From contig NZ_CP013655.1 of the NCBI RefSeq assembly GCF_001465345.1, forward strand, positions 973,791-1,037,790: DNA of 64,000 nt, read 5' to 3'. The notes below the pieces were generated by a model, which saw only the letters and a program-made list of their open reading frames with translations, was not told where the DNA came from and made no database searches. The position numbers were made by a program, and so were the translations under genes. Source of the DNA: Enterococcus rotai. GTDB lineage: Bacteria > Bacillota > Bacilli > Lactobacillales > Enterococcaceae. Each line of letters begins with the position of its first letter. Within the stretch, counting starts at the first letter, position 1. This document shows, piece by piece, positions 34,979 through 41,215 of the stretch.

Positions 34979-35701
34979 GTGGATCTAGAAATTATTACTA
35001 AGGGAAAACAACTTTCTGAAAATGAAAAGCAAATCCTTTCTTATTTGATTACAAATATCCAGTTGCTAGATGGTGTATCTCTACGAGTAATCGCTACAAA
35101 CACCTATACATCGCCTGCAACTATTGTTCGTTTGGCTCAAAAATTAGAATTTTCAGGCTATACTGAGCTTTTTTATTATTTAAAAAATAGCCAACCTAAT
35201 AACCATATGACCTCAAAAGCTACGATTGATTATCACATTGATACACAGAAAATTGAAACCTCAATTAAAGAGATGAAAACGATTTACGTGAAAAATAAAG
35301 ATAAATTCATCACGATTTATGCAACTGGTTTTTCTAGTATCATAGCTGAATACCTCTATAAAAAATTATTAGTCAATGGGATTAAGACCTTATTTGTCAG
35401 CGCTTCAGATTCTTCTGGAATCATCAATAATAATATTGATAACATAAGTATGTTAATAACTATTTCTAAATCAGGTGAGACCCAAAAAGTTATTGAGAAG
35501 ATGACTCATTCAAAAGAAAATAACATTCCAATTATTTTGTTTACTGGAAATGGACAACACCGCGCAAATACCCTTGCATCACTTGTTTTTGAAGTAGAGG
35601 ATGAACGACCACTAGATAGTCAAAATACCCACTATAATAGTTTTTTTGGGAAATTACTATTACTATTGGAATATATCGTAGAAGAATTTGTCCAAGATTA
35701 A
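34979..35701 (+). CDS. RpiR-family regulator of the alpha-glucoside/gluconate operon
   Basis: 240 aa. The N-terminal HTH_6 domain (NEKQILSYLITNIQLLDGVS, IATNTYTSPATIVRLAQKLE) is followed by a SIS phosphosugar-binding domain (FITIYATGFSSIIAEYLYKK, MLITISKSGETQKVI). GTG 34979 follows CAGGAGGTAC and is chosen over ATG 34940. It converges with the gluconate kinase gene, with a shared terminator. Its target is probably the triple palindrome before glvC. Ligand likely a sugar phosphate made by the pathway. Confidence 0.85.
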   Translation: MDLEIITKGKQLSENEKQILSYLITNIQLLDGVSLRVIATNTYTSPATIVRLAQKLEFSGYTELFYYLKNSQPNNHMTSKATIDYHIDTQKIETSIKEMKTIYVKNKDKFITIYATGFSSIIAEYLYKKLLVNGIKTLFVSASDSSGIINNNIDNISMLITISKSGETQKVIEKMTHSKENNIPIILFTGNGQHRANTLASLVFEVEDERPLDSQNTHYNSFFGKLLLLLEYIVEEFVQD

Positions 35702-35737
35702 GCCGTTTTGTTTTTTAGTTTATTACACCTCAAATAA

Positions 35738-35772
35738 TGCCGATAAAAATAGTTTCCCCATTTTTATCGGCA
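35738..35772. terminator. Bidirectional terminator between rpiR and gntK
   Basis: TGCCGATAAAAAT pairs perfectly with ATTTTTATCGGCA around AGTTTCCCC. Confidence 0.85.
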
Positions 35773-35792
35773 AATTAGTAGTTTGAAATTGA

Positions 35793-38150: not shown

Positions 38151-39482
38151 TTAGTGTAATTCTGGCCAATAGTCACCATTTTCACTAATTAAATCATCCA
38201 ATAATTCTTTCGCTACTTGAGCACTTGGAACGGTTTTAGATAATGTCAACGCTTGCCACATCTTTTGATAGCTATTTTCAGCATAGGCTTCAACAACCAA
38301 TTTTTCTACTGTTACTTGTTGGAACATCAATGCTTGCTGGAATTGCGGAATGATCCCTTGCGTCAATGCTTCTGGTCCATCATTTCCTACAATACAAGGA
38401 ACTTCTACCATTGCATCATCAGGAAAGTTAGCAATTGCACCATTATTTTCCACGATCATTACCATACGCTCATGCGTGTTAAAAGCAATGGCTCTTGCTA
38501 AATCTACAATAAATGACGCATGCGCATCGATCTCAAAAGCAATTCCTTCAGCTGAACCTTGAGCAGTAATTTTTTTGGCGTGATCAAATACATGTTTCTC
38601 CCGATTTTCCATTACTTCATTTGAACGAGTATATTCAGGATGCTCCATCATGTGATCTAGCACATAATCTGGGTATAAATAATACTTTAAATACGTATTC
38701 GGTAAATAATCTGGCGCTACAGCTAATAGATCTTTTGCTTTTCTATGCGTTTCCTGCCAGCTTGGATCAGTATGCTGGGTATCAACTTCTACTTGTGTTA
38801 AATAGCCATTTTCTGCGACATAATCGCGAATTTGATCGATATATTCATGTCCTGATTTATCTTTCACGCTTGTCCACCAGCCAAAATGATTTAAACCAAA
38901 ATAACGAACTTCTAGTTCTGCTGGTGTTTTTCCAACGATTTGAGACATACGACGTAAAGTTCCTACAGGCATATCACAAATATTTAAAACTTTAGAATCC
39001 GGACGTAATACGCGGCAAGCTTCTGCAACAATTGCTGCTGGGTTAGAATAATTCAACATCCAACACTCTGGAGAATATTTTTCCATGTAATCAATAATTT
39101 CCAACATCCCAGTAATGCTACGCATTCCATAGGCAATTCCGCCAGGGCCACAAGTCTCTTGTCCGAAAACACCATGACGTAAAGGTACTTTTTCGTCTTT
39201 TTCACGCATCGCATACTTTCCAACACGAATATGCGCCATACAAAAATCCACATCAGAAAAGGCTGCTTCAGGATCTGTCGTATAAGAAAAATCAATCTCA
39301 GGTGCTTGTTCTCTGAGTAAAATCGCTAAAGCATCCCCCAAGGTTTTTTGACGTTCTTCATCATTATCGTATAGTTTTAAGGTTCTTAGCGGAAAACGGT
39401 CTTGATTATCCAAAAGCATCATGACGATTCCAGGTGTAAACGTACTTCCTCCACCGGCTATTACTACTGAAAATTTCTTCAT
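38151..39482 (-). CDS. glvA: 6-phospho-alpha-glucosidase (GH4, maltose-6'-phosphate glucosidase type)
   Basis: 443 aa. Hydrolyses 6'-phospho-alpha-glucosides through an NAD/Mn redox mechanism. Shows the NAD-binding [17 protein letters not shown], the GlvA-type run [20 protein letters not shown] then [35 protein letters not shown] with the metal-binding Cys, and [10 protein letters not shown]. The CDMP motif marks alpha-acting GH4 members; beta-acting ones differ. Directly downstream of its PTS permease gene (adjacent stop and start). Products are glucose 6-phosphate and an aglycone. The next genes suggest the aglycone is gluconate. Confidence 0.92.
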
Positions 39483-41104
39483 TATTCTTCTTCCTCTCTA
39501 CCTAAATATTTTTCTAGATTTTCACGAATTTGCGGAACGGTTAAGCCATAAACTACATGAACACTTTCACCATTCTTAATGACTCCTTTCGCCTCTGTTT
39601 CTACCTTCAACAATTCTTCATCGACTAACGCTGGATCTGCGACTTTTAAACGTAAACGAGTATAGCAATTATCAATCGATTTAATATTCTCATCTCCACC
39701 TAAGCCCTTAACGATCACAGCTGACAACTGGTCTGGATCTAGTTTTATTTGCCCGCTTGAGCCTTCTGTATTACTTGGGACAGGTTGCGATTGCTGCTTT
39801 TGTTTATATTCTTTTTTAGTAAATAATTTAGTTTCCTGTCCTGAATCTTCTCTACCAACCGTTTTCAAGTTGAACTTAGTGATCAGCAGCTTAAACGTGA
39901 AATAATAGATGAAAAAGAAACAAATCCCTACAGCAATGTAGACAGGCCATCTGGTCTTTTCAATTCCTAAAGGCAAATTATATAAAACAAAATCAATAAA
40001 ACCATTCGGACCAATTGCTCTTGAACCCAACATATTTAAAGCGACCATACTCAACCCACTTAAAGCAGAATGAATAACAAAGAGCATCGGTGCTACAAAC
40101 ATAAATGAAAATTCAATTGGTTCAGTCACTCCCGCAATAAATGAGGTCACTACTGCTGGAATCAAGATTGCTTTTACTTTAAATTTATTTTCAGGCTTTG
40201 CTGTCTGATACATTGCCAAACAAGCGCCCACCAATCCAAACATCTTAGAAATACCACGTGCATCCCAGATAACACTTGACGATAATACTTTGATTGCTGG
40301 ATCCGCGGTTTCCGCAAAATAAATATTCCGTGCCCCTTCAAACACCTGACCACCAATATCTGCCACTCCACCAAGAGATGTGTATAAAAATGGTGTATAG
40401 ACTAAATGATGCAAGCCTGTTGGAATCAACAAACGCTCCAAAGTACCATAAATAAAAATCCCAAAGTTCCCTGTTTCCTTGATTACACCGCCTAAATTAT
40501 CGATGCCAGTTTGAACGATCGGCCAAACAAAGGAAAAAACAATTGCTAAAGCTACTAATAATGGAATTAAGATAATAAAAACAAACCGAGCACCGCCATA
40601 TACTTGAAACGCATTATTAAAGACTGTATCAATAAATCGATTATGGACTAAAGCCACAACCAACCCTAAAATAATCCCTAAAAATACCCCCATATCCAAA
40701 ACTTGAATCCCTAAAACCAATGTTTGTCCAGAGCCTTGAAGTTCAGTTGGATCAACCAACATGCCACGCAGTTCCATAAACTTATTCATTGCATAAAGAA
40801 AAACTAAATACCCTAATAAAGAAGTAAATGCTGCTTCAGCCTTTTTTTTATTTGCAAGACCTAAAGCAATCCCCACACAAAAAATAATGCCTAAATTCGT
40901 TAAAATTGGTAATAATGATGCGGATAAAATACTACCAAAACCCATAGTGATTGGATTATCCAAAAATGATAACCGCTCAATTAACCGTGGATTGGTAAAA
41001 ACATTTCCAATTGCAATTAAAATCCCAGCGATTGGCAAGATCAATACCGGTACAAACATTGCTTTTGAAAATTTCTGCATTGAATCCATGATTTTTGCTT
41101 TCAT
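39482..41104 (-). CDS. glvC: Alpha-glucoside PTS EIICB
   Basis: 540 aa. Imports and phosphorylates an alpha-glucoside. The EIIC domain (residues 1-440) starts [20 protein letters not shown] and has [11 protein letters not shown] as the sugar-site motif. A Gln-rich linker ([12 protein letters not shown]) leads to a C-terminal EIIB with the phospho-Cys in [13 protein letters not shown]. No EIIA, so a shared glucose-type EIIA is needed. ATG 41104 follows AAAAGGAG; the longer frame lacks a binding site. First gene of glvC-glvA-gnd-gntK; three palindromes lie upstream. Confidence 0.92.
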
Positions 41105-41143
41105 TTTGTAATCTCCTTTTTTTAATTTTGTAACCCTATTATA

Positions 41144-41215
41144 TGAAACCTCTTTCAAAAGATATATAGTATGCGCTTACTTATAAACGTATTTCAAAAG
41201 TTGAAACATATTTCA
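41144..41215. promoter_or_regulatory. Three operator-like palindromes upstream of glvC
   Basis: TGAAACCTCTTTCA (41144-41157), ATAAACGTATTTCA (41183-41196) and TGAAACATATTTCA (41202-41215) share the form TGAAAnnnnTTTCA. The first overlaps the region just after a TTGAAA...TATAAT promoter on the minus strand. They fit binding by the RpiR-type regulator of the island; the middle one also resembles a CcpA cre site. Confidence 0.6.

Follow-up and report, generated by a model that had tools for sequence, protein, structure and literature searches.

A candidate PTS pathway for alpha-glucosyl-D-gluconates in Enterococcus rotai and related loci of Bacilli and Clostridia

The stretch of DNA considered here, called the window below, comprises 64,000 nucleotides of Enterococcus rotai (contig NZ_CP013655.1, positions 973,791 to 1,037,790). 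It contains an operon that joins a transporter of the phosphotransferase system (PTS) of the EIICB type, a phospho-alpha-glucosidase of glycoside hydrolase family 4 (GH4), a short 6-phosphogluconate dehydrogenase (Gnd) and a kinase of the FGGY family, with the gene of an RpiR-type regulator next to it (Table 1). All five open reading frames are intact. EIICB and GH4 overlap by 1 bp, GH4 and gnd are separated by 64 bp and gnd and gntK by 2 bp, and the domains of the products agree with their assignments, so that the tight minus-strand unit described in a first-pass annotation of the window was borne out. The same holds for two other features of that description, namely the adjoining RpiR regulator, which is convergent with the operon at its 3' end, and the absence of a gluconate importer from the operon. 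Likewise, the searched sequence of the window genome (G000), which is incomplete, yielded no GntP permease. A single transcript running from EIICB through GH4 and gnd to gntK is plausible. A scan of the minus strand for hairpins gave, besides the site listed in Table 1, further sites at 41249-41278 (upstream of the operon) and at 38515-38528 (weak, 5 pairs, inside GH4), and the 6 terminator-like hairpins counted over the region are about as many as chance would give (mean 4.5, standard deviation 2.5).

Table 1. Genes and other features of the operon region, in positions of the window
Feature	Position	Strand	Details
EIICB, predicted importer	39482..41104	-	540 aa (amino acids), ATG at 41104 after AAGGAG; Glc/alpha-glucoside PTS superfamily
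GH4, putative enzyme of the NAD-dependent 6-phospho-alpha-glucosidase type	38151..39482	-	443 aa; Pfam and PDB matches
gnd, short NAD-type 6-phosphogluconate dehydrogenase	37184..38086	-	300 aa; TIGR00872
gntK, divergent short FGGY kinase, gluconokinase-like	35793..37181	-	462 aa; TIGR01314 best family, below cut-off
rpiR, RpiR-type regulator (HTH_6 + SIS)	34979..35701	+	240 aa; GTG start, AGGAGG upstream; Pfam
Terminator-like hairpin, 15 pairs	35738..35772	-	between convergent gntK and rpiR
24-bp direct repeat, 5' end of ABC-3 permease gene, putative att end	34514..34537	-	exact repeat
24-bp direct repeat, second copy, 3' end of ABC ATPase gene	41365..41388	-	exact repeat
Palindrome TGAAACATATTTCA (core GAAA-N4-TTTC), candidate RpiR operator	41202..41215	.	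-111 from EIICB start
Second palindrome TGAAACCTCTTTCA	41144..41157	.	53 bp upstream of EIICB start

The transporter is made of the EIIC and EIIB domains of the Glc family (Pfam PTS_EIIC 7.6e-61, PTS_EIIB 3.6e-14) and has no EIIA domain. Its best model is that of alpha-glucoside EIICBs (TIGR02005), with 394 bits for a cut-off of 607.3, and it falls short of the cut-off in each whole-transporter PTS model that it matched, including malX, glcB and nag. The GH4 protein matches both Glyco_hydro_4 domains (N-terminal 2.1e-61, C-terminal 1.8e-54) and, in the PDB, 6-phospho-alpha-glucosidases, with entries 6dux (5.4e-205) and the maltose-6'-phosphate glucosidase 1u8x (6e-192), which we take to be GlvA of Bacillus subtilis. 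Its CDMP motif (C169 D170 M171 P172), which is the rule for GH4 6-phospho-alpha-glucosidases of the GlvA type, is invariant in 20 aligned sequences. Gnd contains NAD_binding_2 and 6PGD domains and exceeds the cut-off of TIGR00872 (361 bits for 297.2). The kinase has both the N- and C-terminal FGGY domains, and a profile built from 16 kinases of its short type found as best PDB match 3gbt, deposited as a gluconate kinase (317 bits, the next match reaching 104.2).

Conservation was examined in 105 genomes of Enterococcaceae, 71 of which match the GH4 protein at 1e-100 or better. Orthologues at 82% identity or more occur in 25 genomes, the window genome included, and identity then falls to 68%; the other 24 orthologous regions were examined besides that of the window. 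EIICB, GH4, an FGGY kinase and rpiR were found together in all 25 loci while the outer neighbours vary. An intact gnd is present in 12 of them (at least 62% identity) and in L058 (48%), and an EIIA gene in 12 of the 25 regions. The kinase of L058 is a different one, being 29% identical and scoring 399.6 bits to TIGR01314. In a single family group (L047, L048, L049, L055, L056, L057), a gene for 2-keto-3-deoxy-6-phosphogluconate (KDPG) aldolase, of one cluster, lies near the operon in six loci out of six; in L049, the sole one of them that was scanned, genes for IclR, a PfkB-type kinase and KduI stand beside it. Extra genes were also seen beside two gnd-less operons, L038 (PGA_cap, short-chain dehydrogenase) and L043 (alpha/beta hydrolase), and offered no link to the pathway. 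Regarding 6-phosphogluconate dehydrogenases at the genome level, a full-length PF00393 match exists in 101 of the 105 genomes, whereas G000, G046 and G104 gave the short form only and G094 none. The idea that the operon Gnd is the sole enzyme of this kind in G000 was set aside: there is one PF00393 match in the searched sequence, and the absence of a second enzyme is not claimed because the sequence contains N stretches, for example at about 4350-5100 of L083, between ileS and zwf.

Loci that carry paralogous pairs of GH4 and EIICB served as controls. Sixteen regions were taken from the family, a subset of its many places with GH4 paralogues, in which GH4 is 47-68% identical and stands with its EIICB; some are short (L067 6.2 kb, L071 8.4 kb). 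Searches by tblastn for gluconokinase, Gnd, dehydratase and KDPG aldolase, in which P-loop gluconokinases were not queried, found none of these genes in the 16 regions. Five further controls came from the genus of L121 (L167, L168, L169, L173, L174), with three GH4 places of that genus left out (G117:C111 and two in G112). In L169, the FGGY gene beside EIICB is a xylulokinase by cut-off (527.6 bits over 380.25). Altogether, gluconate genes were found by these queries in 0 of 21 control loci. In the same way, 42 loci whose EIICB is 32-37% identical showed no gluconate genes, and they form a weak control because none of them has a detectable GH4.

Beyond the family, a profile search of genome contigs with 16 aligned EIICBs yielded at least 79 loci, which are separated by a clear gap in identity: at least 37 lie at 61-83%, and the other 42 of the 79 listed lie at 37% or less. 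A GH4 gene and an RpiR-type gene accompany EIICB in all 37 named loci of the upper group. This clade spans Bacilli and Clostridia, with members in Enterococcus, Granulicatella, Alkalibacterium, Marinilactibacillus, Desemzia, Carnobacterium, Trichococcus, Aerococcus, Companilactobacillus, Lactobacillus (a metagenome-assembled genome), Neobacillus, Cytobacillus, Robertmurraya, Bacillus, Halolactibacillus, Amphibacillus, Clostridium, Lacrimispora, Anaerocolumna and Caproiciproducens, to which L098 and L109 are added. After removal of L086, L087, L088, L090 and L119 as duplicates of family loci and addition of L170-L172 from the genus of the L121 genome, the clade set comprises 60 loci. All but one of them have an RpiR gene (59/60), none being found in the examined region of L171. 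In a tree of EIICBs the 60 loci form one side of a branch, although its SH-aLRT value is no higher than 61 and long outgroup branches join it.

The two core proteins differ in how far the clade has set itself apart. With clade-specific positions defined as residues present in at least 93% of the clade and at most 10% outside, a simple cut by which a few EIICB positions are end or gap effects, 72 such positions were counted in EIICB and 7 in GH4. This may point to a specialised transporter. The EIICB positions include the arginines R259 and R283, found in 60 of 60 loci, and R362, found in 95%, which could face a carboxylate. In GH4, one of the seven is T175, directly after CDMP, a position occupied by I, L or V in the 20 other sequences.

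The genes that stand beside this core were assigned by gene searches of each region. Among the 60 de-duplicated clade loci, 36 have a gluconokinase and/or Gnd gene, 9 have a dehydratase of the IlvD/EDD family, 13 lack both kinds and the remaining 2 are truncated at contig ends (L106, L116); L175, whose EIICB is itself cut by a contig end, was left out. Local gluconate genes are therefore present in 45 of 58 untruncated loci, through two non-homologous routes and several kinase lineages, and 5-6 changes of gene set are needed on the EIICB tree. Within the group of 36, the kinase occurs alone in L089, L095, L096 and ten family loci, and Gnd alone in L118. Two linked kinases exceed the gluconokinase cut-off of 648.55 bits (L091 with 731, L099 with 910.1), and for those of L094 (638.4), L095 (556.2) and L110 (480) gluconokinase is the best family at scores under that cut-off. 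L099 also has a Gnd of the long NADP type (724.3 over 426.7 bits), and the Gnds of L094, L110 and L118 pass TIGR00872. In a quick kinase tree with long branches, the short family type forms one clade that includes Granulicatella, adjoined by L095 and L110; another group is made of L091-L093, L096, L099 and L115; L058 stands apart, and L094 groups with L082, a stand-alone GntK-like protein of the window genome. The stem branch of the enterococcal kinases is long (3.14 changes per column).

The second route is that of the dehydratase. In L113, L114 and L122 the dehydratase gene is followed by genes for KDPG aldolase and for a PfkB protein resembling 2-keto-3-deoxygluconate (KDG) kinase, the latter being in two pieces in L113; the aldolase of L114, the sole one of the three that was scanned, is assigned by NF005119 (311.9 over 238 bits). 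The dehydratase gene lies upstream on the other strand in L109 and after an EIIA gene in L098 and L102. Clostridial use of gluconate is described, partly from genome inference, as proceeding by gluconate dehydratase, KDG kinase and KDPG aldolase (PMC4179846; PMC5322786). D-gluconate would be the compound common to both gene sets. As a separate observation, genes resembling 3-hexulose-6-phosphate synthase and 6-phospho-3-hexuloisomerase separate EIICB from GH4 in L114 (8798-9957) and L113 (3203-4362), both from Clostridium, and are located upstream of EIICB in Enterococcus viikkiensis (L119 4986-6150).

The company of the EIICB-GH4 core is thus conserved in other genomes and specific to the clade, and the presence of gluconate genes in 45 of 58 clade loci versus 0 of 21 controls is what a glucosyl-gluconate substrate predicts, unlike maltose, trehalose or the sucrose isomers. 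It lends support to the first-pass proposal of glucosyl-gluconate cleavage followed by a gluconokinase and Gnd route, which was argued there from the fact that plain catabolism of maltose or trehalose would not need a kinase and gnd. We consider it likely that the operon is a dedicated PTS pathway for an alpha-glucosyl-D-gluconate, a type of aldobionate of which maltobionate and its isomers are examples. A glucosyl-gluconate is probably the main substrate; maltobionate in particular, one of several candidates that differ in linkage, is a tentative possibility. EIICB, with an EIIA from elsewhere, would import the alpha-glucosyl-D-gluconate and phosphorylate its glucose at O6. GH4 would then split the phosphorylated substrate into glucose-6-phosphate, which would enter glycolysis, and free gluconate. 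The latter would be converted by the FGGY kinase to 6-phosphogluconate, and this by decarboxylation through the NAD-type Gnd to ribulose-5-phosphate. RpiR would probably control the operon through GAAA-N4-TTTC palindromes upstream of EIICB. The chemistry of each step follows from the enzyme families, and the substrate would follow from the company that the genes keep.

Nevertheless, several observations weigh against this pathway. The window kinase reaches 264.9 of the 648.55 bits required by TIGR01314, its best family, and other enterococcal kinases (L036, L038, L045, L049) reach 245-270; that of L047 is broken into two pieces. The first-pass annotation had counted gnd in the set, and it is indeed found in many loci, but it is optional: 10 of the 25 family loci lack it, L037 has it in split form and L053 retains just a remnant. 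On the clostridial side, the six dehydratases that were scanned score 512-547 bits to TIGR00110, below the dihydroxyacid-dehydratase cut-offs, and no model assigns them to gluconate dehydratase. Among the controls, L167 contains at 201-3196, about 3 kb from a GH4-EIICBA pair, two open reading frames (498 and 500 aa) that by eye resemble, presumably, tagaturonate reductase and altronate dehydratase. Finally, the queries used, which covered the local region and did not include P-loop gluconokinases, found no gluconate gene in 13 of the 58 untruncated clade loci. Either the core works without such genes, therefore, or the clade takes other alpha-glucosides too.

These 13 loci would also suit an ordinary PTS operon of the GlvA or Sim kind for maltose, trehalose or sucrose isomers, with gluconokinase and Gnd adjacent by chance or for pentose-phosphate metabolism. 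The many GH4 paralogues of the family at 57-68% identity and the strong match to 1u8x fit it as well, and SimA of Lactobacillus casei is reported to take sucrose isomers, maltose-6-phosphate and trehalose-6-phosphate (PMC3458588). However, L059, a separate GH4-EIICB operon of the window genome, lacks both kinase and gnd, and its EIICB is only 35% identical to that of the operon described here. Gluconate genes, moreover, recur by two unrelated routes in several lineages of the clade, and by the queries used they occur in none of the 21 control loci. A Sim/GlvA operon was rejected as the leading explanation: the EIICB of the sim-like locus L168 and those encoded next to GH4 paralogues share 33-39% identity with that of the window and do not belong to the clade. 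We regard such an operon as unlikely.

The system might instead be a broad one, in which EIICB and GH4 handle not just glucosyl-gluconates but also maltose or sucrose isomers, and in which only genomes where acid forms matter retain gluconate genes. Phospho-alpha-glucosidases do act on many aglycones, as the SimA study indicates (PMC3458588), which speaks against a dedicated pathway, and in the 13 clade loci EIICB and GH4 occur with no gluconate gene nearby, in some cases alongside EIIA. The concentration of clade-specific positions in EIICB, with its three arginines, rather than in GH4 nevertheless may point to a specialised transporter, and a broad system appears quite improbable. Lastly, the cleavage might release a different sugar acid or a polyol as aglycone, with the divergent kinase and the Gnd-like enzyme altered in specificity to suit it. 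This fits the short enterococcal kinases far under the gluconokinase cut-off and their long stem branch, but it is hardly credible given that the window Gnd passes the 6-phosphogluconate dehydrogenase cut-off, as kinases and Gnds of other clade members pass curated cut-offs and the aldolase of L114 its own.

Concerning the regulation of the glucosyl-gluconate pathway, a GAAA-N4-TTTC palindrome, often GAAACGTGTTTC, is found 52-149 bp ahead of EIICB across loci, and RpiR may bind it. In the 250 bp that precede EIICB, the core with a spacing of 4-6 occurs in 41 of 62 loci versus 191 of 3618 background windows of 250 bp, and the strict form TGAAA-N4-TTTCA in 25 of 62 versus 43 of 3618; the 62 loci include five duplicates, and the background windows come from the same loci with the upstream regions themselves included. 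No core was found in that interval in 21 loci, which are 11 of the 12 clostridial-type ones (L106 has it) and ten others (L040, L047, L048, L049, L052, L056, L057, L087, L089, L121). At the position of TGAAACCTCTTTCA, the strict palindrome is present in the window and L035 only. Two operator-like palindromes upstream of EIICB, as in the window, were also seen in L092, L093, L094 and L112. A genome-wide RpiR regulon was rejected, since TGAAAYRYRTTTCA occurs at three places in G000, one ahead of this operon and two beside genes that by eye seem unrelated.

The block that holds the operon splits a metal transporter operon of the ZnuA type, between its ATPase (41353-42048) and ABC-3 permease (33702-34538) genes, and it is flanked by the direct repeats of Table 1; G084 shows the same arrangement plus a FemAB gene (L035). 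Ten of 20 other genomes of the genus were examined at this site. Six have it empty, the two transporter genes overlapping with one copy of the 24-bp sequence (one mismatch in two of the six), and four have other DNA after the same 24-mer (L180, L183, L184, L187). The insert of L187, whose far end also lies within the examined stretch, encodes part of a tyrosine recombinase (PF00589, 3.8e-09), and has a permease-side end resembling that of the window. The direct repeats together with the empty or otherwise filled sites suggest an integration hotspot, where the pathway was probably brought in as cargo in G000 and in G084. Different genes adjoin the operon in other genera.

Taken together, we lean towards the view that this EIICB clade of Bacilli and Clostridia is an unrecognised, dedicated importer of alpha-linked aldobionates. 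It would act as a module whose constant part is EIICB-GH4, accompanied in nearly every case by an RpiR gene and in many by a GAAACGTGTTTC-like operator, plugged into the gluconate route of the host, whether gluconokinase and Gnd or gluconate dehydratase, KDG kinase and KDPG aldolase, and carried in some genomes by integrating elements. If true, this would provide a substrate and a complete route for a PTS clade whose best models (alpha-glucoside, maltose and glucose transporters) all fall below cut-off, and it would explain by what means maltose-type sugars in oxidised form, for instance maltobionic acid, could be used by Gram-positive bacteria. This acid is sold as a food ingredient. It has been reported as a honey component (PMC7020302), and reports differ on its fermentation by gut bacteria (PMC7382184; PMC11922316). 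A different fate is described in one of them for Parabacteroides, which turns the gluconic acid part into glucuronic acid (PMC11922316).

Among the closest known systems is that for maltose, which is taken up and cleaved in B. subtilis by the PTS pathway of GlvC and GlvA, with which the window shares a Glc-family EIICB and an NAD-dependent GH4 phospho-alpha-glucosidase with CDMP. By contrast, the paralogous GH4-EIICB loci of the family, used here for that comparison, have EIICBs 33-39% identical and no kinase or Gnd gene. The sim operon of Lactobacillus casei ATCC 334 (Thompson 2008) reportedly serves sucrose isomers and is said to be a seven-gene block with a SimB-type EIICB and a separate EIIA. 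L168 presumably corresponds to that layout, as it contains GH4, EIICB, RpiR, two small genes, a 162-aa EIIA and a 226-aa protein in about 6.6 kb. Its GH4 is 57% and its EIICB 34% identical to those of the window, it lies outside the clade without gluconate genes by the queries used, and the same genome also holds a separate clade member, L170. Clade loci with an EIIA gene resemble the sim operon in bringing GH4, EIICB, RpiR and EIIA into one operon. Nevertheless, with four genes, no EIIA and so distant an EIICB, the window operon does not belong to the sim type.

Gluconate operons of the gntK-gnd kind are also known. These and the clostridial gluconate dehydratase route (PMC4179846; PMC5322786) have the same second half of the pathway. 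Unlike in gluconate operons, gluconate would here be released within the cell from a disaccharide that the PTS takes up, and the operon has no gluconate permease. The first-pass annotation knew of no PTS route for an aldobionic acid. For maltobionate or any other alpha-linked aldobionate, none was found described in the accessible parts of the open-licence literature searched, but the claim needs tempering because AscB of Escherichia coli has been proposed to split phosphorylated cellobionate into glucose-6-phosphate and gluconate (PMC4403981). According to that paper, cellobionate use needs ascB and the mechanism of entry is unknown (PMC4403981). The proposal is like the pathway suggested here in that phosphorylation on import precedes a cleavage giving glucose-6-phosphate and gluconate, and it differs in the beta linkage of the substrate, in the phospho-beta-glucosidase that would cleave it and in its reliance on generic gluconate enzymes (PMC4403981).

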